Program-made: the position numbers and the translations under genes
The notes under the pieces: generated by a model
Seen by the model: only the letters and a program-made list of their open reading frames with translations
Databases searched by the model: none
Told to the model about the DNA's origin: nothing
Origin: a virus
Strand: one strand, 5' to 3'
Virus record (IMG/VR): IMGVR_UViG_3300037336_000026
Span: 1 to 58,437 of that record
DNA: 58,437 bases
Part shown: one piece after another, positions 20,304 to 50,934 of the stretch
Numbering within the stretch: the stretch's first letter is position 1
How the letters are laid out: each line of letters starts with the position of its first letter

Positions 20304-20987
20304 TTGAAAAGAAACGACAAACAACGCAATGAACGCATGGTAAGAGAAGACAAGTCTTTTCATTTCCAACCTAAAACTCTTAACCAACAAATGCTATTAG
20401 ATGCTATTAGTGAATTTGAAATCACAGTAGCGTTAGGGCCAGCTGGAACTGGTAAAACATTTTGCTCTGCTAGTAAAGTAGCTCAAATGTTTTTAAAAGG
20501 TGGTTATGATTATATTATATTAAGTAGGGCTAATGTACCTACTGGAAGATCATTAGGTGCATTTCCAGGGACTGTTGAAGAAAAACTAGCTCCTTGGTTA
20601 TTACCTATTACTTTTGTATTAGAAAAGAGATTTGGTAAAACTAAATATGATTATTTAGTAAGTAAGAAGGCAATTCAAATGCAACCATTAGAGACTATTA
20701 GAGGTAGATCCTTTGAAAACTCTTTAGTAATCATAGATGAGGCTCAGAACTTAACATTTGATGAAATCAAAGCTATTACTACTCGATTAGGTGAGAATTC
20801 TAAAATGATTTTATCTGGTGATGCGTCTCAATCAGATGTAAGTAATGGTAATGGTATTACTAAGTTTACTAAATTGTGTGAAAAGAATAATATTGAGATT
20901 CCAGTAATTCAATTTACAGTTAATGATGTTGTCCGTTCAGATATCGTTGGTGCCTTAGTTAAAATGTTTGTAAAAGAGAACGTATAA
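20304..20987 (+). CDS. phoH: PhoH-like ATPase
   Basis: A 227-residue P-loop NTPase with Walker A GPAGTGKTF (about residues 46-54) and Walker B LVIIDEAQN. PhoH-like genes are common in phages, especially aquatic ones; the host protein responds to phosphate starvation and some members have RNA-related ATPase/helicase activity, but the phage role is unsettled. The start is uncertain: a TTG at 20304 lies almost on the presumed transcription start, and the next in-frame ATG at 20337 (MVREDKSFHFQ) also lacks a clear ribosome site. Confidence 0.88.
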   Translation: MKRNDKQRNERMVREDKSFHFQPKTLNQQMLLDAISEFEITVALGPAGTGKTFCSASKVAQMFLKGGYDYIILSRANVPTGRSLGAFPGTVEEKLAPWLLPITFVLEKRFGKTKYDYLVSKKAIQMQPLETIRGRSFENSLVIIDEAQNLTFDEIKAITTRLGENSKMILSGDASQSDVSNGNGITKFTKLCEKNNIEIPVIQFTVNDVVRSDIVGALVKMFVKENV

Positions 20988-26163: not shown

Positions 26164-26682
26164 ATGGTCAGAGATCCTTGGGCATGGACCAAAGAAGATA
26201 AAAATAATTTCGGTAGTGTTGGTGGCCCTATGTCTGCTTCAATCCAACCATCTAACGAACAAGCACCTCCACCAGCAATGTCTACACCTGATCCTGTTGA
26301 TCAACAATTGACAAGTATGGCTCTTGGTAAGGGTATTGAGGTAACTGCTTCTGGTGTTAGTGGTGCATTAGGTTCAGGTACAGCTGCTGCAGAAGGTATG
26401 GCAACTGCTGTTGGTACTGGTGCTGCTTCAGGTGCTGGATCACAGGCTGCCATATTAGCCGCACAGAATGCAGGTATGGGAGCATTAGCTCCACAGGCTG
26501 CTGGTCTGACTGCTCAAGCATTAGGTGCAGGTACAGCCGCTACTACTGCAGCTACTACGGGTGCCGTTGCAACAGGTGCTGGTGCCCTAGGTGCTGGGGG
26601 GACCGCTGCTATGGCAGCACTAGGCCCTGTCGGTTGGACTATTGGTGGTCTTTTGCTTGCTAAAAAGTTTGGACTATTCTAA
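26164..26682 (+). CDS. internal virion/ejection protein 2 with hydrophobic C-terminus
   Basis: 172 residues, two bases after the previous gene. Very rich in Ala, Gly and Thr from residue 50, with repeated ATGAGALGAG-type stretches and a final hydrophobic segment (MAALGPVGWTIGGLLLAKKF) that may insert in a membrane. Likely part of the ejection complex with its neighbours. Confidence 0.55.
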   Translation: MVRDPWAWTKEDKNNFGSVGGPMSASIQPSNEQAPPPAMSTPDPVDQQLTSMALGKGIEVTASGVSGALGSGTAAAEGMATAVGTGAASGAGSQAAILAAQNAGMGALAPQAAGLTAQALGAGTAATTAATTGAVATGAGALGAGGTAAMAALGPVGWTIGGLLLAKKFGLF

Positions 26683-26692
26683 GGAGAATCAT

Positions 26693-29098
26693 ATGGATAA
26701 TATTGGACCGTTGTCTACACGACAACAGTTAGACGCTCTTAAGATAGAACAAGAAAGAGCAAAATTACTTAGGCAACAAGCCGAAGCACAAAGATCGGTT
26801 AATAAAATAACTGCAGAAGTACCTAAAGCAATTGAACCTGTTCCACAAGTACCTCAGACTTCTACTCAACCTTTTGATGATTCATTACTTGGTCATATGA
26901 TTAATCAAGAAAGTGGAGGATACCACAGAAACCCTAAGACAGGAGAACTAACAACGCCACCTGTTAAAAAAGGAGAAGTCCCACCTAAATACCCAGCTAA
27001 AGGTATTTTACAATGGAAAGGGGATTCAGCAGCACAACCGGGATATGGTACTACCCCCTTTGATGTTAACACAGCAGATGAGAATACCCAAATCAATGCC
27101 TCTAGACAATACATGACTGGACTTACAAAGGCCTTTGATGGTGATTTAGAAAAAGGATTAGCTGCTTATAATTTTGGCCCAGGAAATCTCAAAAAACATA
27201 TTGCAGCTAACGAAGCAAAGGGTTTAGATTGGAAGGTAGGATTACCAAAAGAAACAGCTAATTATGTCAGTAATATTATGGGTGAGTATTCTTCTGGAAA
27301 TCCTAATGTAGGATCTCAGGTACCTCCTGTTTATCGAGCTTCCATTAATCCAAGAGATACTATGAAAGTGCCGCCAGTAGGCCCGATAGATGAGACTAGT
27401 CTTGTTAGTGTACCTCCACAATCAATGCCTACTGAATTGGAAGTCCGAGCAGCACATCTAGATATCAGAGATAGTAGCAATCTTGTAAAGAGAGCTAAAG
27501 CTCAGATGGTTATAGATAGAGCTAATGGTGTTGAATCATCTCCCGGAATGATTAGGGCTGCTACTTCCAACTTCTCTCCTCAACTACCTAGTACAATTAA
27601 ACCTATGACCGAAGGGGATAACTCTAGTGGTGGTATTGATGCAGCTGATGATCCAGAAGCTCAGGCATTTGCCCCTATCAGTACTAACAATCTCTTAGTA
27701 GTACCTCCATTACAAGATAATGCAGATCAAGTAACACCAGTTACAGTAGAGAGTGGGGTTGTACCACCTCTTGATGAAACAGATTTACCCCCACTGACAT
27801 CAACACAACAAAAGACTATAGATAGCCTAGGTGCTGCTGGTGGCACAGTAAACCCTGCGTCTATAGCTGACACCTTAGTAGGCGTAAGTGGTGACTCTAT
27901 TATAGGTGGCCCTAATTCAGGTAGCGAAGAAGACAAAGCTAAATTACCTGATACATTCTGGAAAGAGCTATCTAAATCATTTAAAGACTTATTTACAGAT
28001 AAAGAGTTTATTAGGTTTGGTATCTTGTTAGCCGGTGGTATGCTTACTGGTGGCTCATTCGGTGGTTCACTTAAGTACGCTGGTTTGTATGCTCTTCAAT
28101 CTGCTGATAAAAGAGAAGCCGTTACAGCTGCTGCTACAGTAACAGCTAAGGCTGCTGCTGCTAAAGACCTAAGTGATAGAGGGAATGCTATTGATAAGAG
28201 TCTCGCATCTGCCTTAGCTAATACAAGTATCCCTGATAATCAGAGGAACTTTGCACTTCAGCAAATGAGAAAGAATGATACTTTACCTTTGGAGCAACGT
28301 GTAGCTGCTAACTTAGCTCTCTTAGAAGGACTCAATTCACTAGCTACTAAAAAAGAGGGTTATAAACCAATACAAAGAGTGGTTGACGGGACAATTACAA
28401 ATCTATATAAAGACCTAGATAACGGTACATTCTCTACAAAAACAGAAGACGCTAAAGGTAATGTAAGCTTTACTGTTGTTCCTAATACACTAAGTGTTGA
28501 TGATTTTACAACCTTAAATAGTGACGTTAAAGGTGCAGTATCATCAATGGTTGGTGCTTTATTAGACCCTGAGCTAAAGAACGCAAACGATATTAAAGAT
28601 AATATTGCTCAACAAACTTTAGATACTACTACTCACATGACAACATATGGTAGTACTATTCAGGCTAGAGATGTAGCTCAGATGGCTAAGGTTGCTATGA
28701 ATACTGTTGGTACTTACAGAGCTGGAATGGACTACGCAGAATGGTCGTCTAAATATGTTGGTGCCTTGTACACTCAAGCTGCTGTTCGTATAGCCCCAAC
28801 TAGAAAAGAATTGTTTATGAATCCTGAAGGGCTCCCCTTATCAGCACCTGCTTATGCCAGAATTAGAACTGAGTTAGCTGGTGATAAGTTAGAACCGGGC
28901 CTTGCTAGACTAATAGGTGAGTACGAAAAATACCGTGACAATGCATCTACTACTAAGGTAGATATTACATTACCAAACAATGGTTCCTTAAAGGTGCCTA
29001 AGGATGTTGCAACATACTTAAATCAAAACAAAGCAGAAAGTCCGTTAACGGCGTATCTTCATTTGCGTAGTCTAGGTAAAGTAGGCAAAGTAAATTAA
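26693..29098 (+). CDS. ejection protein 3 with lytic transglycosylase domain
   Basis: Start at ATG 26693 behind AAGGAGAATC; the in-frame extension upstream overlaps the previous gene. 801 residues. Residues about 60-170 form an SLT-type transglycosylase: catalytic Glu in MINQESGG, the AKGILQW element in place of the usual G-L/M-Q, and the closing AAYNFGPGNLKKHI. T7 gp16 likewise carries such a domain to open peptidoglycan during DNA entry. The rest is proline-rich linker followed by long helices (from about 430) with one hydrophobic patch (FGILLAGGMLTGGSFGGSL). Confidence 0.8.
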   Translation: MDNIGPLSTRQQLDALKIEQERAKLLRQQAEAQRSVNKITAEVPKAIEPVPQVPQTSTQPFDDSLLGHMINQESGGYHRNPKTGELTTPPVKKGEVPPKYPAKGILQWKGDSAAQPGYGTTPFDVNTADENTQINASRQYMTGLTKAFDGDLEKGLAAYNFGPGNLKKHIAANEAKGLDWKVGLPKETANYVSNIMGEYSSGNPNVGSQVPPVYRASINPRDTMKVPPVGPIDETSLVSVPPQSMPTELEVRAAHLDIRDSSNLVKRAKAQMVIDRANGVESSPGMIRAATSNFSPQLPSTIKPMTEGDNSSGGIDAADDPEAQAFAPISTNNLLVVPPLQDNADQVTPVTVESGVVPPLDETDLPPLTSTQQKTIDSLGAAGGTVNPASIADTLVGVSGDSIIGGPNSGSEEDKAKLPDTFWKELSKSFKDLFTDKEFIRFGILLAGGMLTGGSFGGSLKYAGLYALQSADKREAVTAAATVTAKAAAAKDLSDRGNAIDKSLASALANTSIPDNQRNFALQQMRKNDTLPLEQRVAANLALLEGLNSLATKKEGYKPIQRVVDGTITNLYKDLDNGTFSTKTEDAKGNVSFTVVPNTLSVDDFTTLNSDVKGAVSSMVGALLDPELKNANDIKDNIAQQTLDTTTHMTTYGSTIQARDVAQMAKVAMNTVGTYRAGMDYAEWSSKYVGALYTQAAVRIAPTRKELFMNPEGLPLSAPAYARIRTELAGDKLEPGLARLIGEYEKYRDNASTTKVDITLPNNGSLKVPKDVATYLNQNKAESPLTAYLHLRSLGKVGKVN

Positions 29099-29112
29099 AA
29101 AGAGAGGAACTT

Positions 29113-32100
29113 ATGATAGAAGAAGATAAAAAAGATCCTGGCCCACAGGTAAAATTTATTGATGGGAAGCCCGTAGGTTCCTCTTACAGTATAGATGCTG
29201 ACACAACAGTTGTTGATGATCAATCATACCGTATACAAGGCTTTAACGCTTTTGAGACTGCTAAAGATAAAGCAGGAATAATTGTTCCTAACCAATATCA
29301 AGGTGATAGGACACAAGAGTTTGTAAATAGGTTCGCAGAAACGGGTGAGTTTGATCGTCTTAATACGAAAGGTCAAGACCCTGCATTTAAGAATCGTGTA
29401 CTAGCAAGGCAAGTCAATCTTGAAGGAGAAGACTTAGCCTCTGTTATGACCTCTCTTGGCGTAATTGACCCTACTGCTTTCTCAAACCCTGAAGATATTA
29501 ATAACTCAATTGCTAGTGGTAGTATTAGTAGGTTGTTTCCAACAGCAGACAGTACAGATCCATTAAGAGCACTCGCTAAGGAAAAGAAAGACTATGATAA
29601 GGCACAAGGCGTTAGATGGGAAAAGACCTCTAACGTAGCCTCACCAGCAGAGTACAAAGCATTTCAAGATGCTGTTGGCGCTACAGCTGCTGCCACTGCT
29701 GCTACTGAAGTTGAAAGACTCAATGAGGTACTGGCAACAGAAGAAATGAGCGACTCCACAAGAAGTCTCCTCACTACCCAATTAGAAGAGGCAAGAGGAA
29801 GGGTCTTATTTGCTGCATTAACTCCTAGAATTATCGGTGGAGTTAACTATCAACCTAACGATAGAAACATTATGAATAAAGCTACTGGCTTTATTAATCA
29901 ATCTTACGCTGCACTTAACGTTGCAACGACAATGTTCGTTAAGGGTATTGGTGGTGTATTAGAGATGGCTGGTGAAAAAGGTCAGTGGGATTATATAAGC
30001 CAGAAGGGTAAAGAATACCAATTAAAAGCTGAACTGTATGATGCAGACACCCCATCTTACGTTGCTACAGTTTCTGATATAGATACAAGTAATCCATTTT
30101 CTGCAGTAGCAGATACTGGTTTGTTCTTATCTAACAACCTTATCACAATGATTCCGTTGTGGACTTCTGCATTAGCAGCTGGTGGCGTTGCTGCTACCTT
30201 AGGGGCTCCTGCAGTTGTAGCAGCCGGTATATCTGTGTTACCCGGATGGTTAACATATACTGGTGGTATGTATTCAGACCAACCTGAAGGTGAAAAGAAC
30301 CCAGCTCAAGCCTCCTCTTTTGGTTTGTTTGCTTCTGTTCTTGATAGGTTAGGTATTGAAGCTATCTTTGCTAAGGGCGCAAGTAGCCTCCTTACTAAGA
30401 AAGGCTTAGATGAGATGGTAGCGATTGTAGTTGCTAAGAAGGGAGTTACTCCAGAAGTAGCTAAAGAACAAATTGCAACTATAACTAAGAAAGAACTTAT
30501 CGAGACTGCCAAGTTTAGTAGTGCATTTGCAAAGTCGCAAGTAGCTACAATGGCATATGCAACTAAAGCTCTTGCACGTATATCAGCTGCTGGTATTACT
30601 GAGGGTGTTACTGAGACTGCTCAGAGTGCCTTAGAACTTATTGCAGCTACTGGACAATGGAACTTAGATGCTAGGTACCAAAAGGATTTCAACAAGCAAT
30701 TGGTTGATTCCTTTATTGCTGGTGGAGCTATCGGTGGTGTTATTACAGGAGCTGGTGAGGCAAAGACCTTAGCACAACTACATTCAGCTTATGATTATCA
30801 CAGGACTAATACAAGAGATCTAGATGATAACCAAAAAGCACAATTATCTCTTGAAGAAGAATATAACTCTGGATCATTGCCCGGCATTGGTACTGAGTTT
30901 AATACCTTTAACGTAGCTAAGGGTATTCAGTTACAGTCTCATGATTTTATATCAGGTAATCCTAGGAACGCTACTGATGCAGTTAAGATGACTAACAAAG
31001 AAGGCTTTATTAACATACTTACAGATGGTTTTAGACTATTAAGAGGTCATGCTAATCAGATGACTAAAAAGCTTTATAATGCTGACGGTAAATTTCTGAG
31101 AAATAGAGCTGTTATTAAATCGCTTATGTCAGGTATGGGTATAGTTCCGGGTCAACCTTACAGTGGTTTTAAAAGATCACTACTAGGTGAGTGGGCTGCA
31201 AAGCATACCAGCTCTGCAAATATTTCTGCGGAAATGAATATGAGTGAAGTAGAATCTGGTAACGTTATCCTAGATGCTTATAGAAGATTTTGGTCTAAGG
31301 GGTTAGATACACCCGTAGAACATCCTAACTTTGAAGCATTGAACAGGTATCATAGTGAGTTGGGTAACATGCAAAGAACAGCTAGGGGTATGGCTAATGA
31401 GTCTGGCGTTTCTAGTTCTTTGATTGATAATCTTGATTCCCTCTTTGTTCCTGAGATAGATAAACATACCTTCAATAAAAATAAAGATACCATTATTGAT
31501 AAGTTAATGGCACAAGGTATGCCAAGGAGTGAAGCTAATAAAACAGTAGAGAATATTTTCTCTAGTGATAAAGGAAAAATGAGAGATGCCTCTGAAGCAA
31601 TTGCTAATGCAGGTTTATTTAGAGATCCTGAATTAGATCATATCTTTGAGAAGAACTTCTTTAGATCATTAGAAGGTATTAAGGAAAGATTAGCGGCTAA
31701 CATAGCTATCAATAGCTACTACGGTAAAGATGCAGAGATTCTTTATAAGTTAGCGGACATGGCAGATCAGAATGGTGAGTTCTCTAGTCCAGAAGAAAAG
31801 CAAACATACCTCAGTGAAATTAAAGATTACTTTGATATGATTGAAGGTAAGTATAACACATTAGATAATTACCCAGTAATTAAAAATGTATATGCATGGA
31901 CAGGAACCTTGACAATGTTAGCTATGCTAGGTAAGGCAGGATTATCCTCGTTACCTGAGGTTGCATTGTCATTGCTAGGCACAAGAGGAGAGAAGGTAGG
32001 AGACCAATTAGGCTTATGGGCTAAGAATATGCTTAGCGAAATTGGCGATGATGCATTTACTCGTAGTAACTCATTTGTTACTAGTGCTCTACGCATATCT

Positions 32101-33339
32101 AAATTAGGTAACGTAGCTCTTAAGACTCAAGATATTAAGCTTGCAGAACAGATTGCTGAGATAGAGGCCGCGCTAAAAGTAGCTCAGGCTGTAAAAGGTA
32201 ATGACAAAGAGCTTGATGCTATTGGTGTTAAACTGGATAGTTTGTATGAAGAATCTATTGGAAGAACTTTATTTGAAGATCTTGGATTTGCAGAAACTGG
32301 GTTTAACACTCAGTCTAGATTCGAGTATGCAGACAACAGTATGCGTAATGTTATGGGCTTATTCGCAAAGATAACCTTACTTAAGCAAACTACTGAGTCT
32401 ACTCGTATGGCTGCTATATCTATGGCATCTGATACGGTGGCATCTTATGTGGAAGCACTTAGAGGTGTACCAGTCGAAATGTTTAGGACTGGTAAGGGGC
32501 TAACTAAGTTCCAATACCAGGCATTAAAAGAGTTACAAGCATACGGTATGAATGTACCTGATGTAATGTTTTATATCGAAAATACAGAAAGCGGTGAGCT
32601 TAATTCATTGTCTTCAAGATATGAAATGTTTGTACTTAAGGGTAAAGAGGATGTAACTGATGTACCTTTTAATAGTTTCATGAGAAATATTAATACGGCT
32701 GTATCAAACATGGTTGATTCAAACGTTCCTAACCCACAACCACATAACATTCCTAAGTATTATCATGACCCTAGGTTTAGGATTATAACCGTTATGACAA
32801 GGTACCTTGCAGCACTGCAAACCTCAGTCATACCTAAGTTATATAATGATTATATTAAAGATGGTAATGTAGGTATGCGTTATCAAGCGTTCTCAGTTAT
32901 GGTTGGTGCAATGGCTCTTGCTGGATTGGCTAATGGTTTAAAAGATCAATTATCTTACGGAGAAGACAGCCCATATATCAATGGTATAATGAAGAATGCT
33001 CAAAGAACCCTATATGGTGCAGGTTTATTAGGTCGTGGTGAGGTTATTGTAGATGCAATGGCTCCACTATACAATCGTAAAGGCGTTAGCCTAAGTGATG
33101 CAATGAGTCCCGGTAATGATAGAAGTACTATCGGTGGCTGGGTTTATGACACAGCTAAAAGCAATATGGCACCAGTCGCATGGGCTGATAGGTTTGTTAG
33201 AGCAGGTAGTGCTATATCTGATGGTGACTACCCTACAGCTGGAAGACAACTTGCAAGGGCAATGCCTTTAATCGGGTCTGTACCTAGAACATACGATGAA
33301 CTAGAAGAATTATTTGTAAATTCACTTAAGGAAAAATAA
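29113..33339 (+). CDS. large ejection protein with N-terminal SNase-like domain
   Basis: 1,408 residues. Residues about 15-118 follow the staphylococcal nuclease (SNase/TNase) pattern: IDADTTVV (D28, D30, T31), SYRIQGFNAFET (R40, E48), then NRVLARQVNLEGEDL (R95). Compared with the model enzyme, the equivalents of D21, R35, E43 and R87 are kept but D40 is Asn and T41 is Ala, so activity is uncertain. A hydrophobic region at about 335-385 (LITMIPLWTSALAAGGVAA) could cross the membrane. The remainder is helical. Position matches the big internal core protein of podoviruses. One base separates it from the next gene. Confidence 0.72.
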   Translation: MIEEDKKDPGPQVKFIDGKPVGSSYSIDADTTVVDDQSYRIQGFNAFETAKDKAGIIVPNQYQGDRTQEFVNRFAETGEFDRLNTKGQDPAFKNRVLARQVNLEGEDLASVMTSLGVIDPTAFSNPEDINNSIASGSISRLFPTADSTDPLRALAKEKKDYDKAQGVRWEKTSNVASPAEYKAFQDAVGATAAATAATEVERLNEVLATEEMSDSTRSLLTTQLEEARGRVLFAALTPRIIGGVNYQPNDRNIMNKATGFINQSYAALNVATTMFVKGIGGVLEMAGEKGQWDYISQKGKEYQLKAELYDADTPSYVATVSDIDTSNPFSAVADTGLFLSNNLITMIPLWTSALAAGGVAATLGAPAVVAAGISVLPGWLTYTGGMYSDQPEGEKNPAQASSFGLFASVLDRLGIEAIFAKGASSLLTKKGLDEMVAIVVAKKGVTPEVAKEQIATITKKELIETAKFSSAFAKSQVATMAYATKALARISAAGITEGVTETAQSALELIAATGQWNLDARYQKDFNKQLVDSFIAGGAIGGVITGAGEAKTLAQLHSAYDYHRTNTRDLDDNQKAQLSLEEEYNSGSLPGIGTEFNTFNVAKGIQLQSHDFISGNPRNATDAVKMTNKEGFINILTDGFRLLRGHANQMTKKLYNADGKFLRNRAVIKSLMSGMGIVPGQPYSGFKRSLLGEWAAKHTSSANISAEMNMSEVESGNVILDAYRRFWSKGLDTPVEHPNFEALNRYHSELGNMQRTARGMANESGVSSSLIDNLDSLFVPEIDKHTFNKNKDTIIDKLMAQGMPRSEANKTVENIFSSDKGKMRDASEAIANAGLFRDPELDHIFEKNFFRSLEGIKERLAANIAINSYYGKDAEILYKLADMADQNGEFSSPEEKQTYLSEIKDYFDMIEGKYNTLDNYPVIKNVYAWTGTLTMLAMLGKAGLSSLPEVALSLLGTRGEKVGDQLGLWAKNMLSEIGDDAFTRSNSFVTSALRISKLGNVALKTQDIKLAEQIAEIEAALKVAQAVKGNDKELDAIGVKLDSLYEESIGRTLFEDLGFAETGFNTQSRFEYADNSMRNVMGLFAKITLLKQTTESTRMAAISMASDTVASYVEALRGVPVEMFRTGKGLTKFQYQALKELQAYGMNVPDVMFYIENTESGELNSLSSRYEMFVLKGKEDVTDVPFNSFMRNINTAVSNMVDSNVPNPQPHNIPKYYHDPRFRIITVMTRYLAALQTSVIPKLYNDYIKDGNVGMRYQAFSVMVGAMALAGLANGLKDQLSYGEDSPYINGIMKNAQRTLYGAGLLGRGEVIVDAMAPLYNRKGVSLSDAMSPGNDRSTIGGWVYDTAKSNMAPVAWADRFVRAGSAISDGDYPTAGRQLARAMPLIGSVPRTYDELEELFVNSLKEK

Positions 33340-33340
33340 A

Positions 33341-36300
33341 ATGGCTTTATTTGGTAATATACGAAACAGGACGGCACCTGACGCTCGTAACTTAAATATC
33401 CCTCAACCAAGAACATCTCAAGGAGAGATGGACGCACGTTACGGGGATGTTCCTCTCCCAGCAGTTTCTTCAGTAGACGAAGCTGCAAGAAGCATAATGG
33501 AATATGGAGGTGTTCCTCCACAAGCGTTTGGCTTACCACCTGTACCCGCACAAGCTGTTGGTACTCCCCTAGATCCAGATCCGCTGGCTAGGCGTGACCG
33601 TGAAATACCTAATCCAGCAACTAATGACTTATCATTGCTTGATCAAGAGCAAATGCAGAATCAAAGTGTACCTGTAAATCCTGAAGATTATTCAAGGCAG
33701 TTCTTAGATGAACAAGCTAAAGAAAAGGATTTCCAGCAAGGCTTTGAGGCTATGCAATCAGTTGTTGATCCTGCTACTGGCCAAAGAATGCCCGGTGACT
33801 TTACAAAAGCAGCTGAGTTAATCTTAGGTGAAGGTAATGAGAAAGCAAAGTATCTATCTCCCGGAGAAGCTGAAAAGTATGCTGCCACGGAAACACAGAT
33901 TAAGAACGCTGCTGACCGTGTATCTTCACCACTAGCTTTAATCTCTGAAAGAGCTAGACAAAATCTCTTATCATCTAGTAGTATGGTATATGATTCGTCT
34001 AACCCTGATTCACGACAAGCTAAGGGTTACACCTTAATGCTAGCAGAGGGCTTCGAAGATTCTGAGATGGAGACAGTAGCTGATATGGCAGGTATTGCGT
34101 CTTACTCTGCTTTGTCTCAGATCCCTAGGGCAAAGGCAGATGCAGAAGAAGATGTAGCTGTAAACCCAAATACAGGAGTTATTAATTACGATAACGTAAT
34201 TGCTAGCGGTACTCACTTCATGAAAAATATGGCCAAGACTGTTGGCTTACCTGAACCAAGTCCCGGTTTCTTTGAGAGCATAATGGCTACTCATTTTCAA
34301 GCTGAAGTACAAAAAGGTAGCTATGCTCTTAACCGATCTGCGGATGGTAAGATAGAGTATCTCCCTACTGATGCTCAGAAAATTATAGCTAGGAAAGTTG
34401 GTACTGTTGCTAGGATAGCTACAGCTAGGCTTGGTAGGAATGTTTCATCTAGAACACCCCAAATTGTTGGATCAGCCCTTGGTGAGAAACAAACATTCAC
34501 TAAGAGGTCTCTTACAAGCAACTCTGTATTAGGTAGAGACCTAGATACCTCTGCTGCGGAGACTGTAAAGGACATGATGGGTAGTGTAAGCTATCGCTTC
34601 TTACCTTCTCATGTAGCTCTGCAAGAAAAGTTTATGACAGCTATGTTGTCACCTGAGTTCCTAATTAACTCTCCGGATGAAGGTGTATACTCTACTCACT
34701 ACATGGCAGAGCATTATGGTCTTTCCCAGAAAGACTTTAATAAGATTAAGAACAATCAATTACCTCCTAGAGATGAAGCTAAAAGAGTAGGTTGGTCTCC
34801 AATACCGGCTGCTGTTAAGATAATGAACAACATTATCAAGCAGAAGGGTATGGTCTTAGAAGCAATTAAGGGTGCTGAAGGTTTAAGGTTCGCTGAGATC
34901 ATGCACTCAATCATGAACCATCGTTACTTTATTAATAGTTACGATCTTGATTACATGGGTTCCAAGGATATGATTCGTGATATCCTTAACTTCGGTGAAA
35001 GAGATATCGTGTATGGTAAATCGCTTTTCCCTAATGATTTGAATTCTTCTTTAGAGAATGACAGACTTAAATCAGAGGGTCTAAAGATCTTCAAGATAGA
35101 AGATGGTGTAGCAAGAGGGAAAGCCCTTGAGAGTCTAACTCCAGATAAGCTTGGTGCCTTAGGTACAATGATTGATGCTGTACTGAACTATCATACTGTT
35201 GTTAAGCCTTTACCTGATGTACTGAAGATGCCTGATAGAGATCTTATTGGCCTTTACACACCAGAGCTAGCTAACGCGTTAGCAGACTTAGGTGGTCAGT
35301 ATAACGCCTATATAAACGATCCAGAAGGTGATGCTAATAATAAACACAATAACATCTTAACTTACTTAGCAGCAATACCTAAAGGAGAATTCCTTGCTAA
35401 TGCTGCTTTGTGGGATGATATGTTCCAATTGAAGAATGATGCAGCTAACCCTAAGAGCAATAAGCTTGGTAGGTCTATTACTCATACAACAATTAGTGAT
35501 GGTACTCAGAGTGGTTTGTTTATTCAGGCCTTCCAACACGGTAACAGTGAACATGCAGATCGTCTTGGTAGAGCTAAGTATGCCGATGAAGAGCGTGCTC
35601 CAAGAGACCTTCGTGATGCTACTATGGCATCTATGATTGAAGAAGTAGATAGGATTAACCGTAAGAGTGGTACTATTGAGGACTCTAATACTGCAGATGC
35701 ATTTAGTGCTTTCTTTGCAGAGCTACCTGATGTATATCGAGGTGATTACCATGCGATGGCGAATGAGTTCTTTAAAGCGCCATTGATGCAAGTGTCTTAC
35801 TCCAAAGATGCAGGTATGTTTCAAGGTTTCTTGGAAGACACATTATCAAGGACTAACATAGAACCCTTAGTATCTAAGTACTTGTTACCTCACTTTGGTT
35901 CATTATCTGATGCTGCTGCTAGCCTTAATATTTCTTTAGAGAATGTATTAAGAGAAGCTATATCTACTTCAGTTAGGAAGCTACAGGATATTGGTTATGG
36001 TATGGCAATACTTGATAAACCACTGGTTTATAAGAGTATAACAGGTGATGATGTCCTTATCAGCCCTGCTGGTTTAACCACAATACCAAAGACTGTAGAC
36101 TATAACTCATTTACTACTGGTAAGCATGGCTTTAAATTCTTAGCTAGTGGTGTTGAGACAATTGATTTTATGGTTGACGATGGTAGTGGTATGCTGACTA
36201 GTAAGTCTATACCCCGTAAGATGATGGGGCTATTGCCTGGACATGCCAAGCCTGTTCAATACTACTGGGATAACCAAGCAAAAGTATATAGACCTTATAA

Positions 36301-37459
36301 AAGCTTTGCAGGTAGTTCTTTGTCCAGAGAAGCAGCGGTAATGCCTACACAGGCTATCGATGCAGCTTGGATTACATTAACTATGTTAGAAGTAAATAAG
36401 GGAAGATCTAAACCAAGACCAGTTTCTTGGGTACACGATTCAATTATATCTACTGGTGGTCAGGGCCTTATCTATCGTAACGCTTATAACAATATAACAA
36501 TACCTAGGTCAATTAAGACTGTTGCTAAAACTAATGGTGATATTTATAATGCCTACAAAGAAGCTAAAGCACAGGAGCTAAGGCTTATTAAAATTAAAGG
36601 TGTGGTTGGTATAGGTTCTGATGGTCAGTACGAATCTATGGGTGGTTTCTTTGATAGCATGTTCTATCAGTTCGAACCTATGAGTGAGTACAAAGCAATC
36701 TTCCTAAAGAGAAGAAATAGCAGTGGTGCTATGCGTACTGAGCTAGATTGGAATAAGAAAGTACTACAGGTTAACAAAATCCTTGATGAAGCAATCAATA
36801 ATGGATATGTACCTCCTAACCTTGTCCCTGAGTCTGAGCGTAAGAGCATGGCAGTTAATGCAACTGAGTATGAAGCCTTACTAGGATTGTTTGAGACAGT
36901 TAGAGGCATTAGCCCTAGAGTACTACAAGCATGGGCTGATAATTCAGAAGCTAAGGGTATTGAGGCCGGAAAGTTCCTTATTAAGAGAGCTAAATACGGT
37001 GGTATTATACAGATGGCACCTAGTGGTGGTGCAAGGCCAATGTTATCTTCTATGATTACTGAATCACTTGCTTCAGCTAAGAAGCCAGTAACACCCTTTA
37101 AGTTTGCAGCACCAGTAGCAGCTGAAGTGGTTGAAGAAGCACCTGTAAAAGCTAATAGTAGAGCCGGTTTACTTGAGCAAGCTCAACGTGATACTAAGTT
37201 TACTGATGAAGCTACAGAGGTTGATGAAGTACCTGCTGTAACTAGTGGTGATGATATCCCTACAAATGATTCTATATTAACAGACAAGACAAAACCTATA
37301 AGCTTAGTTGACCTTGTTAATCATATAAAATCTAAGAGCCTAATCCCTACTGCTGCAAATACTAACTCATATTTACTTGATCTTAGATTAAAAGGATATG
37401 ATGTTAGCAGTATTACTTATGATGATGTAGACAACTTCTTCAGTAATATACCTATCTAA
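33341..37459 (+). CDS. putative virion RNA polymerase (N4 vRNAP-like single-subunit type)
   Basis: 1,372 residues, last gene of the ejection block. In order I see: motif A-like ISDGTQSGLFIQA (D720); motif B-like FKAPLMQVSYSKDAGMF (K812, Y820, matching T7 K631-x7-Y639); motif C-like VSWVHDSIIS (D1033). Spacings are 92 and 221 residues; T7 has 94 and 181, and N4 vRNAP has larger ones. A DYMGS at 537-541 could be the T/DxxGR loop without its Arg, but that is doubtful. Long N- and C-terminal regions flank the core, as in N4. If right, the polymerase is injected with the DNA to transcribe early genes. The alternative is another ejection protein with chance motifs. It ends at a strong terminator. 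Confidence 0.6.
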   Translation: MALFGNIRNRTAPDARNLNIPQPRTSQGEMDARYGDVPLPAVSSVDEAARSIMEYGGVPPQAFGLPPVPAQAVGTPLDPDPLARRDREIPNPATNDLSLLDQEQMQNQSVPVNPEDYSRQFLDEQAKEKDFQQGFEAMQSVVDPATGQRMPGDFTKAAELILGEGNEKAKYLSPGEAEKYAATETQIKNAADRVSSPLALISERARQNLLSSSSMVYDSSNPDSRQAKGYTLMLAEGFEDSEMETVADMAGIASYSALSQIPRAKADAEEDVAVNPNTGVINYDNVIASGTHFMKNMAKTVGLPEPSPGFFESIMATHFQAEVQKGSYALNRSADGKIEYLPTDAQKIIARKVGTVARIATARLGRNVSSRTPQIVGSALGEKQTFTKRSLTSNSVLGRDLDTSAAETVKDMMGSVSYRFLPSHVALQEKFMTAMLSPEFLINSPDEGVYSTHYMAEHYGLSQKDFNKIKNNQLPPRDEAKRVGWSPIPAAVKIMNNIIKQKGMVLEAIKGAEGLRFAEIMHSIMNHRYFINSYDLDYMGSKDMIRDILNFGERDIVYGKSLFPNDLNSSLENDRLKSEGLKIFKIEDGVARGKALESLTPDKLGALGTMIDAVLNYHTVVKPLPDVLKMPDRDLIGLYTPELANALADLGGQYNAYINDPEGDANNKHNNILTYLAAIPKGEFLANAALWDDMFQLKNDAANPKSNKLGRSITHTTISDGTQSGLFIQAFQHGNSEHADRLGRAKYADEERAPRDLRDATMASMIEEVDRINRKSGTIEDSNTADAFSAFFAELPDVYRGDYHAMANEFFKAPLMQVSYSKDAGMFQGFLEDTLSRTNIEPLVSKYLLPHFGSLSDAAASLNISLENVLREAISTSVRKLQDIGYGMAILDKPLVYKSITGDDVLISPAGLTTIPKTVDYNSFTTGKHGFKFLASGVETIDFMVDDGSGMLTSKSIPRKMMGLLPGHAKPVQYYWDNQAKVYRPYKSFAGSSLSREAAVMPTQAIDAAWITLTMLEVNKGRSKPRPVSWVHDSIISTGGQGLIYRNAYNNITIPRSIKTVAKTNGDIYNAYKEAKAQELRLIKIKGVVGIGSDGQYESMGGFFDSMFYQFEPMSEYKAIFLKRRNSSGAMRTELDWNKKVLQVNKILDEAINNGYVPPNLVPESERKSMAVNATEYEALLGLFETVRGISPRVLQAWADNSEAKGIEAGKFLIKRAKYGGIIQMAPSGGARPMLSSMITESLASAKKPVTPFKFAAPVAAEVVEEAPVKANSRAGLLEQAQRDTKFTDEATEVDEVPAVTSGDDIPTNDSILTDKTKPISLVDLVNHIKSKSLIPTAANTNSYLLDLRLKGYDVSSITYDDVDNFFSNIPI

Positions 37460-39101: not shown

Positions 39102-41090
39102 TTATCCTTCACATGCGAGACATTCATCTGACTCGGTGTTTGTTATTTGGTTTTGTAAGTGGTTACTTAGTTCAGTAAACCCACCAATGTATTCTCCCTT
39201 CAGGTATATCTGAGGTACTGTTCGAACGTCAGGGCGTCCTGTAATTTCAGCTGCAGTCTTACCTTCAACTTCAATATCGATATATTCATACTCAATATTA
39301 TTAAAGGCAAGTAAACCTTTAGCGTTAGCACAGTGAGGACAATTATCCTTACCGTATACAATAGTTCTTTTCTCTTCAATTAACTTATTAGACTCTACCT
39401 TCTTAGATACATTCTCTGCACGAGCAGTTGCCTCAGTACGTAGATAGTATAACCCTTTAAGGCCTTTTTCCCAAGCAGAGAGGTGTACCTTATTAACATA
39501 GGCACGATCAGCACCAGAGGGAAAGAACAAGTTAACAGATTGCCCTTGGCAGATATAACGTTGACGTTGACCTGCTAATTTAACAATATCCATCTGATCA
39601 ATCTCAAAGCTTGTGGCAAATACTTTCTTTGTTTGGTCATCTAAGAAGTCTAAGTGTTGTACTGATCCACTATTAGTGATGATGTTACTCCACACTTCCT
39701 GTGTATTCTTACCAAGAGCTTCTAGTACATCCTTAAGATATAGGTTCTGTACTAAGAAAGAACCAGCACGAGTACGATGAGTATAGGCATTAGCTTTATT
39801 AGGCTCAATACAAGGGGAAGAACTGATTATAATGCTACTAGAGGCATTAGGAGCGATAGCTAGTAGGTGCGCATTACGCATACCGGTACCCACCATATCA
39901 GGAGCTTCTCCACGCTCACCTGCAAGCAACCTGCTAGCCTGTACAGCTGCTTTCTTGATGTAAGAAAACATCTCTTCATTCATAACTACTGAATCTTCAC
40001 TACCAAAGGCAACATTATTACGTTGTAAAGCGTTATGAAAACCCATAGCACCTAGTCCAAGAGACCTTTCTCTTGATGCAGAGTACTTTGCTCGATACAA
40101 AGCAGGAGGGCAATTCTCAATAAAGTATTCGAGTACGTTATCAAGCATAGTAATAAGGTCTGCAATCATTGTGCTACCAACCCAGTCACTATAGTGCTCT
40201 AGATTAACTGAGCTTAAACAACATACAGCAGTACGGTCTTCGTTTGTTACTAGGTGAATCTCATTACAAAGGTTGCTACCATTAATAGATAGACCTAGAT
40301 CCTTCTGTGCTTGTGGTAAAGCCTCATTAGCAGTATCAATAAAGTTAAGATAGGGTTCTCCGGTACGGAAACGGGTTTCTAGAAGCTTCTGCCATACAAC
40401 TCGTGCATCTAACCATTCACCGGTGTTACCCTTCTTAGGGTCGATAAGTTCATATTTAGTTCCTGCTTTTACAGCACTCATGAACCCATCAGTAATATTA
40501 ACAGCATTATGAAGGTTGAAGCACTTACGATTGACATCCCCCGTTGGGATCCTGAGACCGATAAACTCCATAACATCAGGATGATCAACGTTAATATAAG
40601 CAGCATAAGAACCTTTACGTGTTTTACCTTGGCGATATGCCGTCATATCCGCATCTACCGTATGTAGAAACGGGATAGGGCCGGGAGCAATATCCGATAC
40701 ACCTCGTACATCACTCCAATGGCCACCCACACCACCTCCCATAACAGAGAGTAAGCGTAGTTCAGAGCTGTGATCAATAAGACCCTCAATTGTGTCAGGA
40801 ACATACGTTAAGAAGCATGATATTGGTAGACCTTTGGCCTTGTTCGATGAGTCAGGGGCATTAGAAAGAACAGGACTGGCGAACATAAACCAGCCCTTCG
40901 ATACATAGTCATACAAGCGTTGAGCTAACGCTTCATCTCTTATACCTTTAAAATTACTCCATGCCCAAGAAGCACGAGCAAAAATATCTTGTGGGGACTC
41001 CTCACCTTCTTTAGCGTAGAAGTCCATTAACATATCCTGTGAGTAGTCAGCTAGTTGTTTATCACGTTCATAGCTAATTTTAATGTTCAT
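39102..41090 (-). CDS. nrdA: ribonucleotide reductase class I, alpha subunit with inserted glutaredoxin
   Basis: Catalytic subunit, 662 residues. Active-site parts: GLPISCF (first Cys), SNLCNEIHL (Asn-Cys-Glu), AVCCLSS, and GLYYLRTE (radical-transfer tyrosines). There is no N-terminal ATP-cone, so dATP feedback is probably absent. Between the barrel and the usual C-terminal redox tail (DECLACEG, C657/C660) is a complete glutaredoxin domain at about 574-645, with CPHC active site, TVPQIYLKG cis-Pro loop and YIGGFTEL. It can thus be recycled within one chain. A phage promoter precedes it. Confidence 0.93.
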   Translation of the reverse strand: MNIKISYERDKQLADYSQDMLMDFYAKEGEESPQDIFARASWAWSNFKGIRDEALAQRLYDYVSKGWFMFASPVLSNAPDSSNKAKGLPISCFLTYVPDTIEGLIDHSSELRLLSVMGGGVGGHWSDVRGVSDIAPGPIPFLHTVDADMTAYRQGKTRKGSYAAYINVDHPDVMEFIGLRIPTGDVNRKCFNLHNAVNITDGFMSAVKAGTKYELIDPKKGNTGEWLDARVVWQKLLETRFRTGEPYLNFIDTANEALPQAQKDLGLSINGSNLCNEIHLVTNEDRTAVCCLSSVNLEHYSDWVGSTMIADLITMLDNVLEYFIENCPPALYRAKYSASRERSLGLGAMGFHNALQRNNVAFGSEDSVVMNEEMFSYIKKAAVQASRLLAGERGEAPDMVGTGMRNAHLLAIAPNASSSIIISSSPCIEPNKANAYTHRTRAGSFLVQNLYLKDVLEALGKNTQEVWSNIITNSGSVQHLDFLDDQTKKVFATSFEIDQMDIVKLAGQRQRYICQGQSVNLFFPSGADRAYVNKVHLSAWEKGLKGLYYLRTEATARAENVSKKVESNKLIEEKRTIVYGKDNCPHCANAKGLLAFNNIEYEYIDIEVEGKTAAEITGRPDVRTVPQIYLKGEYIGGFTELSNHLQNQITNTESDECLACEG

Positions 41091-44948: not shown

Positions 44949-45110
44949 TTAATTCCAATCTTGATCTTCTCTGATCTCTCTGATTAACTGCCTACGTTCT
45001 TTAGCTGTTTGTTGTGTATCCCTTTTACGTGTAAATTGATCGCGGTATTCTGACTTAGGGTTTAAGTCTTCAACCTCTTTGTGTTTAGACTTGTCGTCTT
45101 TATTTTTCAT
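44949..45110 (-). CDS. 53-aa charged hypothetical protein
   Basis: Begins ATG 45110, overlapping the TGA of the GIY-YIG gene by four bases (ATGA), and ends at the base before the primase start. Composed almost only of Lys, Glu, Asp, Arg and Gln (KNKDDKSKHKEVEDL ... RRQLIREIREDQ), so probably one long helix. Tight coupling on both sides supports a real gene, perhaps a replication accessory. Confidence 0.6.
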   Translation of the reverse strand: MKNKDDKSKHKEVEDLNPKSEYRDQFTRKRDTQQTAKERRQLIREIREDQDWN

Positions 45111-45526
45111 AACTTAGGTTTAATAAATTTTACTGCACCAATATTACCATTGTACCAGAGTCTCTCTCCTGATTCAATCTCTTCCCTAGATAATACTTCT
45201 GATAGCCATTGCTCCTGTACTTCACGGTAGGTTAACATTCCTTTCCCTATTACCCAGTCATAAATGACAAAGGTAAATGCTCCTTTACCGTACTTCTTAA
45301 TGTCATCGTTCAATTCCTTACATGATGAGGTGTAAACCCTCCAAGCAGATTCCTTAACGGTCTTAACTCGGCGAGACTTACCTTCAACTCTTTTCATAGA
45401 TACACTTACGAGTTGTTTTCTTCCGATATATTTTCTTCCTGTGATAAGGTTTTCGATATAGTAGATGAATCCAAAGGCATCGTCTGGTCTATCACTAAGG
45501 GGGTTCCAGTGTCCGTAATCGTCCAT
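45107..45526 (-). CDS. GIY-YIG endonuclease-like protein
   Basis: 139 residues. The GIY-YIG core appears as GFIYYIENLITGRKYIGRKQL, with a following conserved Arg/Tyr region (WRVYTSSCKELNDDIKKYGKG) and the later catalytic-type Glu (EVQEQWLSE). It stands where T7 has endonuclease I and may resolve replication intermediates or act as a homing enzyme. The first 121 bases overlap the end of the exonuclease gene in another frame, an unusually long overlap. Confidence 0.75.
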   Translation of the reverse strand: MDDYGHWNPLSDRPDDAFGFIYYIENLITGRKYIGRKQLVSVSMKRVEGKSRRVKTVKESAWRVYTSSCKELNDDIKKYGKGAFTFVIYDWVIGKGMLTYREVQEQWLSEVLSREEIESGERLWYNGNIGAVKFIKPKL

Positions 45527-50328: not shown

Positions 50329-50934
50329 TTAATCTTTCCTTAGGTTGTTAGACAGGTTGTAGTACATACCTGATTTAGTAGCTTTTAGTTGCATTATTAG
50401 CATAGTTTCTAGCTCAAGCATTTCTTCATCAGTACCATAGGCTAGTATAGTACGGGTGAAGTCAGTAGGGCTATCCTCAAGCTCTTTAAGAAGTGTTTCA
50501 GATGAACATAGGTATCCATCGTCAGGACTACCTTTATGTTTACCGATATACTTCTTATCATTGAGATCAATCCACATATATACGAATGCTTCACCTTCCT
50601 CTCTACTGGGTATGTTTTCTTCTTTGATTGGTTCATTCTTGTCGTTACCTTCAAGATGATTAACCCAGATATCCTTAACATACGCCAGCATGTGATCACC
50701 CTTAGGTGCTCGCCATAGTACTACAAAGGAATCTGTACCTTCATTAGAACATAAGAAGTCATAGACCCATTTGTTATGTAAACCGTAGTATTCAGTACCA
50801 TCGATTGTAACCTTGATCATAAGCTTATCTGAAGCAGAGGTATAAGTCTCAACTTCATTTACCTTACACTCAAATATATCGAAGTATTTATTATTACCAG
50901 CTACATATCTTGTGATAGTGTTTACAAGTTTCAT
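50329..50934 (-). CDS. second GIY-YIG nuclease-like protein with N-terminal extra domain
   Basis: 201 residues. C-terminal ~90 residues carry the GIY-YIG pattern: AFVYMWIDLNDKKYIGKHKG, a following YLCSS and a Glu-rich helix (DEEMLELETMLIMQ) supplying the usual catalytic Glu, ending with the YYNLSNN element. The N-terminal 110 residues are a separate domain of unknown type. Could be a homing nuclease or a host-DNA-degrading enzyme. It differs enough from the 45.1-kb nuclease not to be a recent duplicate. Confidence 0.72.
   Translation of the reverse strand: MKLVNTITRYVAGNNKYFDIFECKVNEVETYTSASDKLMIKVTIDGTEYYGLHNKWVYDFLCSNEGTDSFVVLWRAPKGDHMLAYVKDIWVNHLEGNDKNEPIKEENIPSREEGEAFVYMWIDLNDKKYIGKHKGSPDDGYLCSSETLLKELEDSPTDFTRTILAYGTDEEMLELETMLIMQLKATKSGMYYNLSNNLRKD

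Follow-up and report, generated by a model that had tools for sequence, protein, structure and literature searches.

Our findings suggest that a podovirus genome encodes a very large ejection protein capped by a nuclease. The window, as we call the whole 58,437-base virus record analysed here, contains a gene for a 1408-aa protein whose residues ~14-120 are almost certainly a divergent homologue of staphylococcal nuclease (SNase), and the protein itself is very probably an ejection protein. The explanation that we favour, with some reservation, is that of a LUZ24-type podovirus ejection protein with a genuine, divergent SNase cap, which would be injected as an active nuclease; we infer its presence in the virion, its ejection, its catalysis, the side of the membrane on which it acts and its target.

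The window has a podovirus layout, in which a structural block in the order terminase, portal, scaffold, major head protein and tail proteins is followed by four consecutive genes that are Ala/Gly-rich or very large and thereafter by an opposite-strand block encoding ribonucleotide reductase, T7-type RNA polymerase, primase/helicase, exonuclease and DNA polymerase. A PhoH-like gene (20304-20987) lies within the tail/structural block. In bacterial genome contigs, the portal protein had no relative. The run of four genes is composed as follows:

26164-26682, plus strand: 172-aa Ala/Gly-rich protein, cysteine-free, in a gp14-like position; putative role judged from position and sequence
26693-29098, plus strand: 801-aa protein with an SLT lytic transglycosylase domain (Pfam, PHROG), cysteine-free
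29113-33339, plus strand: 1408-aa predicted ejection protein with a LUZ24-type core and an N-terminal SNase domain, cysteine-free (open reading frame, core homologues)
33341-37459, plus strand: 1372-aa protein, predicted third large member of the ejection set, cysteine-free, its position kept in relatives

The 1408-aa reading frame starts with an ATG at 29113, preceded by the ribosome-binding-like AGAGAGGA. It is adjoined upstream by the SLT protein, whose start codon has AAGGAGAA before it and which matches both Pfam SLT (E 6.3e-6) and the PHROG “internal virion protein with endolysin domain” (E 1.1e-6), and downstream by the 1372-aa protein, which has no family match in Pfam or PHROGs; the order is similar in relatives. 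Homologues of the protein's core were identified in CRP-7 gp34, PaP3 orf19, KPP25 ORF088 and phiA008 gene0066. As deposited, PaP3 orf19 is a “constituent protein,” and the core homologues of KPP25 and phiR18 are each a “virion structural protein.”

Cysteine content points in the same direction. The four-protein run (26164-37459; 172, 801, 1408 and 1372 aa, 3753 residues) contains no cysteine, where about 30 would be expected at the rate of the 31 other genes of the window (92 per 11,389 residues) and about 13 at that of its structural genes (25 per 7,114), although the residue is likewise missing from a few of the window's other structural proteins. Cysteine is also absent from T7 gp15 and gp16, from N4 gp50, gp51 and gp52, and from CRP-7 gp33-35, while T7 gp14 has one; among the long reading frames of the family, 30 of 32 have none and two have one each. 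Taken together, the absence of cysteine and the gene order support ejection through the envelope without proving it, and along with the core homology they uphold the context of an injected virion protein in which the original prediction had placed the domain. The cysteine-free state of the window, T7, N4 and CRP-7 sets may, as a separate observation, serve as a signature of ejected phage proteins.

Taken singly, the window protein does not reveal its N-terminal domain. Neither its first 120-160 residues nor its full length matched SNase in Pfam, PHROGs gave no match over the SNase region, the N-terminus had no credible match among PDB sequences, and NCBIfam held no useful match for the SNase region. 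A disulfide-isomerase identity, indicated by a weak NCBIfam match (E 0.0089, residues 26-76), was rejected as outweighed by the SNase evidence. Because the first 120-160 residues alone matched nothing credible, relatives were gathered, and the SNase signal emerges only when these are included. A tblastn search of phage records returned one relative, Roseobacter phage CRP-7 gp34, whose N-terminus is a canonical-looking SNase that keeps D40 (E 0.012 against the NCBIfam thermonuclease NucI), and further relatives came from viral-contig searches seeded with CRP-7, the portal protein and successive homologues.

The principal alignment, A8, comprises 38 rows, among which some close pairs stay in. 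It excludes identical or near-identical copies (L001, L002, L004, L005, L007, L011, L012, L015-L019) and further such copies (L055-L069, L071, L072, L077, L080, L081, L083, L124, L131, L137, L140), as well as the 5'-truncated L134, the partial L006, L013 and L014, and L128; CRP-7 (L003) is absent from A8 and present in alignment A6, where it shows the same residues. Against 177,635 PDB sequences, the A8 profile aligned end to end with residues 4-135 of S. aureus nuclease (E 9.9e-10), pairing DxDT, R35, D40, E43 and YGR87, and the SNase residue numbers used here are consistent with this alignment. Similarly, an hhalign comparison of the window clade (11 rows) with 21 Bacillota SNases was collinear, with a probability of 95.1 and an E-value of 3.1e-8. 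Single rows sometimes suffice, since 10 of the 38 match Pfam SNase unaided (best E 1.2e-4) and eight match PHROG 452 “endonuclease” (best E 4e-7); the window domain scores under the Pfam gathering score, which is an annotation threshold and not a biological feature. The A8 profile detects the SNase domain in 32 of 33 loci, a count to be read with the facts that many of these rows trained the profile, that the profile is bound to match rows of its own family, and that E-values for the locus set refer to a small target set. The remaining locus, L134, lacks its 5' end, and L128 was detected although it lies outside A8.

The structure model agrees with the profiles. An AlphaFold2 (AF2) model of residues 1-155 (pLDDT 77.4) shows the SNase order of elements; in Foldseek searches of the PDB it retrieved SNases first (best E 0.014, probability 0.97), VIA returned SNases with a best Z of 7.3 over 100-105 residues, the tool's own line being 8, and in BFVD a 1368-residue protein and viral nucleases ranked first. 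Residues 47-53, which contain E48, have pLDDT below 50, so the active-site loop is poorly modelled. As modelled, the N-terminal domain of the window protein has an SNase (OB-type) fold, with middling structure scores. The original prediction had read an SNase signature in the N-terminal residues and had proposed that an OB-fold/SNase match be sought by profile and by structure comparison; such a match appears in both, the signature is confirmed by the A8 profile, the hhalign result and the model, and D28, D30, T31, R40, N45, A46, E48 and R95 lie where they had been placed and pair with SNase residues. The elements of the protein to which the argument refers are these:

29152-29472, plus strand: SNase-like domain, residues 14-120 (A8 profile, hhalign, AF2 model, Foldseek/VIA)
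29194-29205, plus strand: DADT motif, with D28, D30 and T31 corresponding to SNase D19, D21 and T22, each in 38/38 rows
29230-29232, plus strand: R40, corresponding to SNase R35, in 38/38 rows
29245-29256, plus strand: NAFE, with N45 at the place of D40, A46 at that of T41, then F47, and E48 at that of E43 (A8 alignment)
29395-29397, plus strand: R95, corresponding to SNase R87, in 38/38 rows
30169-30240, plus strand: hydrophobic segment, residues 353-376 (Kyte-Doolittle 19-residue mean up to 1.86)

Over the 131 well-occupied columns of A8, the sole invariant positions are M1, D28, D30, T31, R40, E48 and R95, and the equivalents of the six that make up the catalytic set are also invariant in the 21 Bacillota SNases. 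D30, R40, E48 and R95, the counterparts of D21, R35, E43 and R87, are thus kept in every row while identity to the window domain falls as low as 19%. Just before R95, the window protein has an insertion of two residues that most relatives in the clade alignment lack. A catalytic set conserved amid such drift is, on the alignments, the pattern expected from selection for cutting, and we consider it likely that the N-terminal domain is a catalytically active nuclease.

According to the explanation that we favour, the protein would be packed in the head, leave it together with the DNA and fold again in the cell envelope, and its SNase domain would act as a nuclease dependent on a divalent metal, probably Ca2+. 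The hydrophobic segment at residues 353-376 could insert into a membrane and leave the N-terminal domain on one side. The phage's own DNA would travel inside the ejection tube, shielded, and DNA outside the tube, from the host or from a second phage, would be cut; on whether the chief role is to cut DNA that does not belong to the phage, our judgement is evenly balanced. In a narrower form of this explanation, which we regard as rather doubtful, the host chromosome would be degraded in the cytoplasm and feed the nucleotide metabolism of the phage. Such a role would suit a phage that encodes a ribonucleotide reductase, a dCMP-deaminase-like gene, an exonuclease and a DNA polymerase, and the Pfam model finds no further SNase elsewhere in the window. 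However, classic SNase needs Ca2+ at levels that are scarce in the cytoplasm, and the two GIY-YIG genes together with the exonuclease could do the same job.

That the SNase domain is a catalytically dead fold, which would bind DNA or guide the DNA end within the ejection channel, is unlikely. What speaks for it is that position 45, the equivalent of the Ca2+ ligand D40, is Asn in 27 of the 38 rows, including the window, and Ser in two, so that D40 is replaced in 29, and that, in the available part of a review of ejection proteins, sequence-independent DNA binding is reported for the C-terminal part of T7 gp16 (PMC8954989). The original prediction had correctly read Asn at D40 and Ala at T41 in the window protein, and had raised the possibilities that Asn45 marks an altered active site and that it is fixed among homologues. 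Asn45 is not fixed: the other nine rows have Asp, among them L142, the closest non-identical relative of the window, and in a C-terminal tree built from 28 rows the state of position 45 changes at least four times. In Bacillota SNases, the D40 position is Asp in 13 and Asn in 9 of the 22 distinct proteins whose motif could be read by pattern, a count that may be biased because the pattern left 8 of the 30 matches uncounted. Since the homologues carry Asp, Asn or Ser and 9 of 22 genuine SNases carry Asn, Asn at D40 does not by itself point to a dead enzyme; judged from these sequences, it is a normal SNase variant that is commoner in the phage family. At the frequency seen here (Asn or Ser in 29 of 38 rows, as against Asn in 9 of 22), the replacement could reflect weakened metal binding. 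Position 46, corresponding to T41, is Ala in 36 of the 38 rows, a residue found there in one of the 22 Bacillota SNases (L110). A mere binding fold would hardly require all the catalytic residues, and the invariance of those other than D40 favours a kept nuclease over a dead DNA-binding fold. Of the two roles originally offered for the domain, nuclease or DNA-binding fold, the former is therefore retained and the latter disfavoured.

The distribution of the core shows how the SNase domain is carried. In a core profile built from 24 full-length family members, PaP3 orf19 (LUZ24 type) aligns to model positions 273-1273, from PaP3 residue 65, with an E-value of 1e-38 that refers to a small, nine-target search. 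Scanned with the A8 profile, the retrieved stretches of PaP3, KIT05, KPP25 and CRP-810 show no SNase domain; KPP25 ORF088 spans the start of its record and was examined as two separate parts. In the 2050-aa product of gene0066 of Aeromonas phage phiA008, by comparison, an SNase at residues 12-103 clears the Pfam cut-off (36 bits vs 21) and the core begins at 155. Because PaP3 has the core without the SNase and phiA008 has it with one, the SNase can be regarded as a module that caps the N-terminus of a LUZ24-type virion protein. That the nuclease is active but works on the DNA of the phage itself, such as in end trimming or in release at ejection, is improbable: the domain would be packed beside the genome if the protein is indeed an ejection protein, but PaP3 and other LUZ24-type phages manage with the same core and without the domain. 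Also within the core, and outside the SNase region, residues 381-553 give a PHROG hint of “virion RNA polymerase” (E 3.4e-4).

For the injected nuclease that we favour, action in the periplasm is plausible because it fits the Ca2+ need of SNases. The SNase domain would remain at the periplasmic face of the tube and meet high Ca2+ there, and a metal ligand that has drifted from Asp towards Asn or Ser would adjust the enzyme to spare the packaged genome from nicks. In its full form, this reading is speculative and, in our estimate, unlikely to hold: an entire podovirus lineage would carry a virion-delivered periplasmic nuclease that destroys incoming DNA, that of a second phage included, the phage's own genome being protected by the tube. 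Destruction of second-phage DNA in the periplasm would exclude a superinfecting phage ahead of all phage gene expression.

Enzymes known on ejected phage proteins are mainly peptidoglycan hydrolases. For N4-like phages, the available parts of two papers describe an ejected RNA polymerase (PMC10925440, PMC12633501). A nuclease on an ejection protein, if true, would represent a further class of injected enzyme and would make it possible to test directly how, early in infection, the DNA of the phage is spared and other DNA damaged. The SNase-capped protein occurs in two phages in culture, CRP-7 and phiA008.

Compared with known systems, the domain resembles the SNase family (PF00565; S. aureus thermonuclease, PDB 1stn and 2sns) in the order of strands and helices, in DxDT and in the equivalents of D21, R35, E43 and R87, whereas it falls below the Pfam cut-off, has Asn for D40 and Ala for T41, and is fused to ~1300 further residues. 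CRP-7 gp34 (QBQ72827.1) shares gene position, core and N-terminal SNase with the window protein, but is only 24% identical to it overall, keeps D40 and is deposited as hypothetical. A large neighbour of gp34 in CRP-7 (L003:3116-6787) contains a pesticin/phage-lysozyme-like domain (Pfam E 3.6e-6) where the window has SLT, so that between the two phages the peptidoglycan hydrolase is swapped and the SNase kept. The phiA008 protein (UIS74281.1) is likewise a cysteine-free giant that has the shared core and starts with an SNase, but differs in its length, its longer core, its retained D40 and its Pfam-passing score; it too is deposited as hypothetical, and its N-terminal SNase (gene0066, L150:706-6858) is unannotated in the deposit despite that score. 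PaP3 orf19 has the homologous core and lacks the domain.

The window set is predicted to resemble the ejection sets of T7 (gp14, gp15, gp16) and N4 (gp50, gp51, gp52) as a run of large, ejected, enzyme-bearing proteins. It differs from them in that the family profile had no match to T7 gp15 and gp16 or N4 gp50 and gp51 at an E limit of 10, and in that the last 530 residues, when modelled (pLDDT 68.5), gave no credible PDB match, to a T7 or N4 ejection fold or to any other. Stand-alone SNases are common in phages, with 615 phage records matching a phage SNase. The search of open-access literature, outside which most subscription journals lie, returned no account of a podovirus ejection protein that bears an SNase domain; the word “nuclease” is absent from the available main text of the CRP-7 genome paper (PMC6918029) and from that of the review of ejection proteins (PMC8954989). 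The only relevant precedent found there, in the accessible part of its source, is the baseplate-hub protein of BtI1, which has an N-terminal SNase on a virion protein as in the window but belongs to a phage-like element of Bacillus and is a hub rather than an ejection protein (PMC2147016). Its authors stated in that part that the reason for the SNase domain was not obvious (PMC2147016).

Other features of the window concern its opposite-strand block and nucleases of a different type. The ribonucleotide reductase large subunit (39102-41090) has an apparent C-terminal thioredoxin-like domain (PHROG 22, residues 559-648). A GIY-YIG (SegE-like) endonuclease gene (45107-45526) overlaps the exonuclease reading frame, and a second, weaker GIY-YIG candidate lies at 50329-50934.
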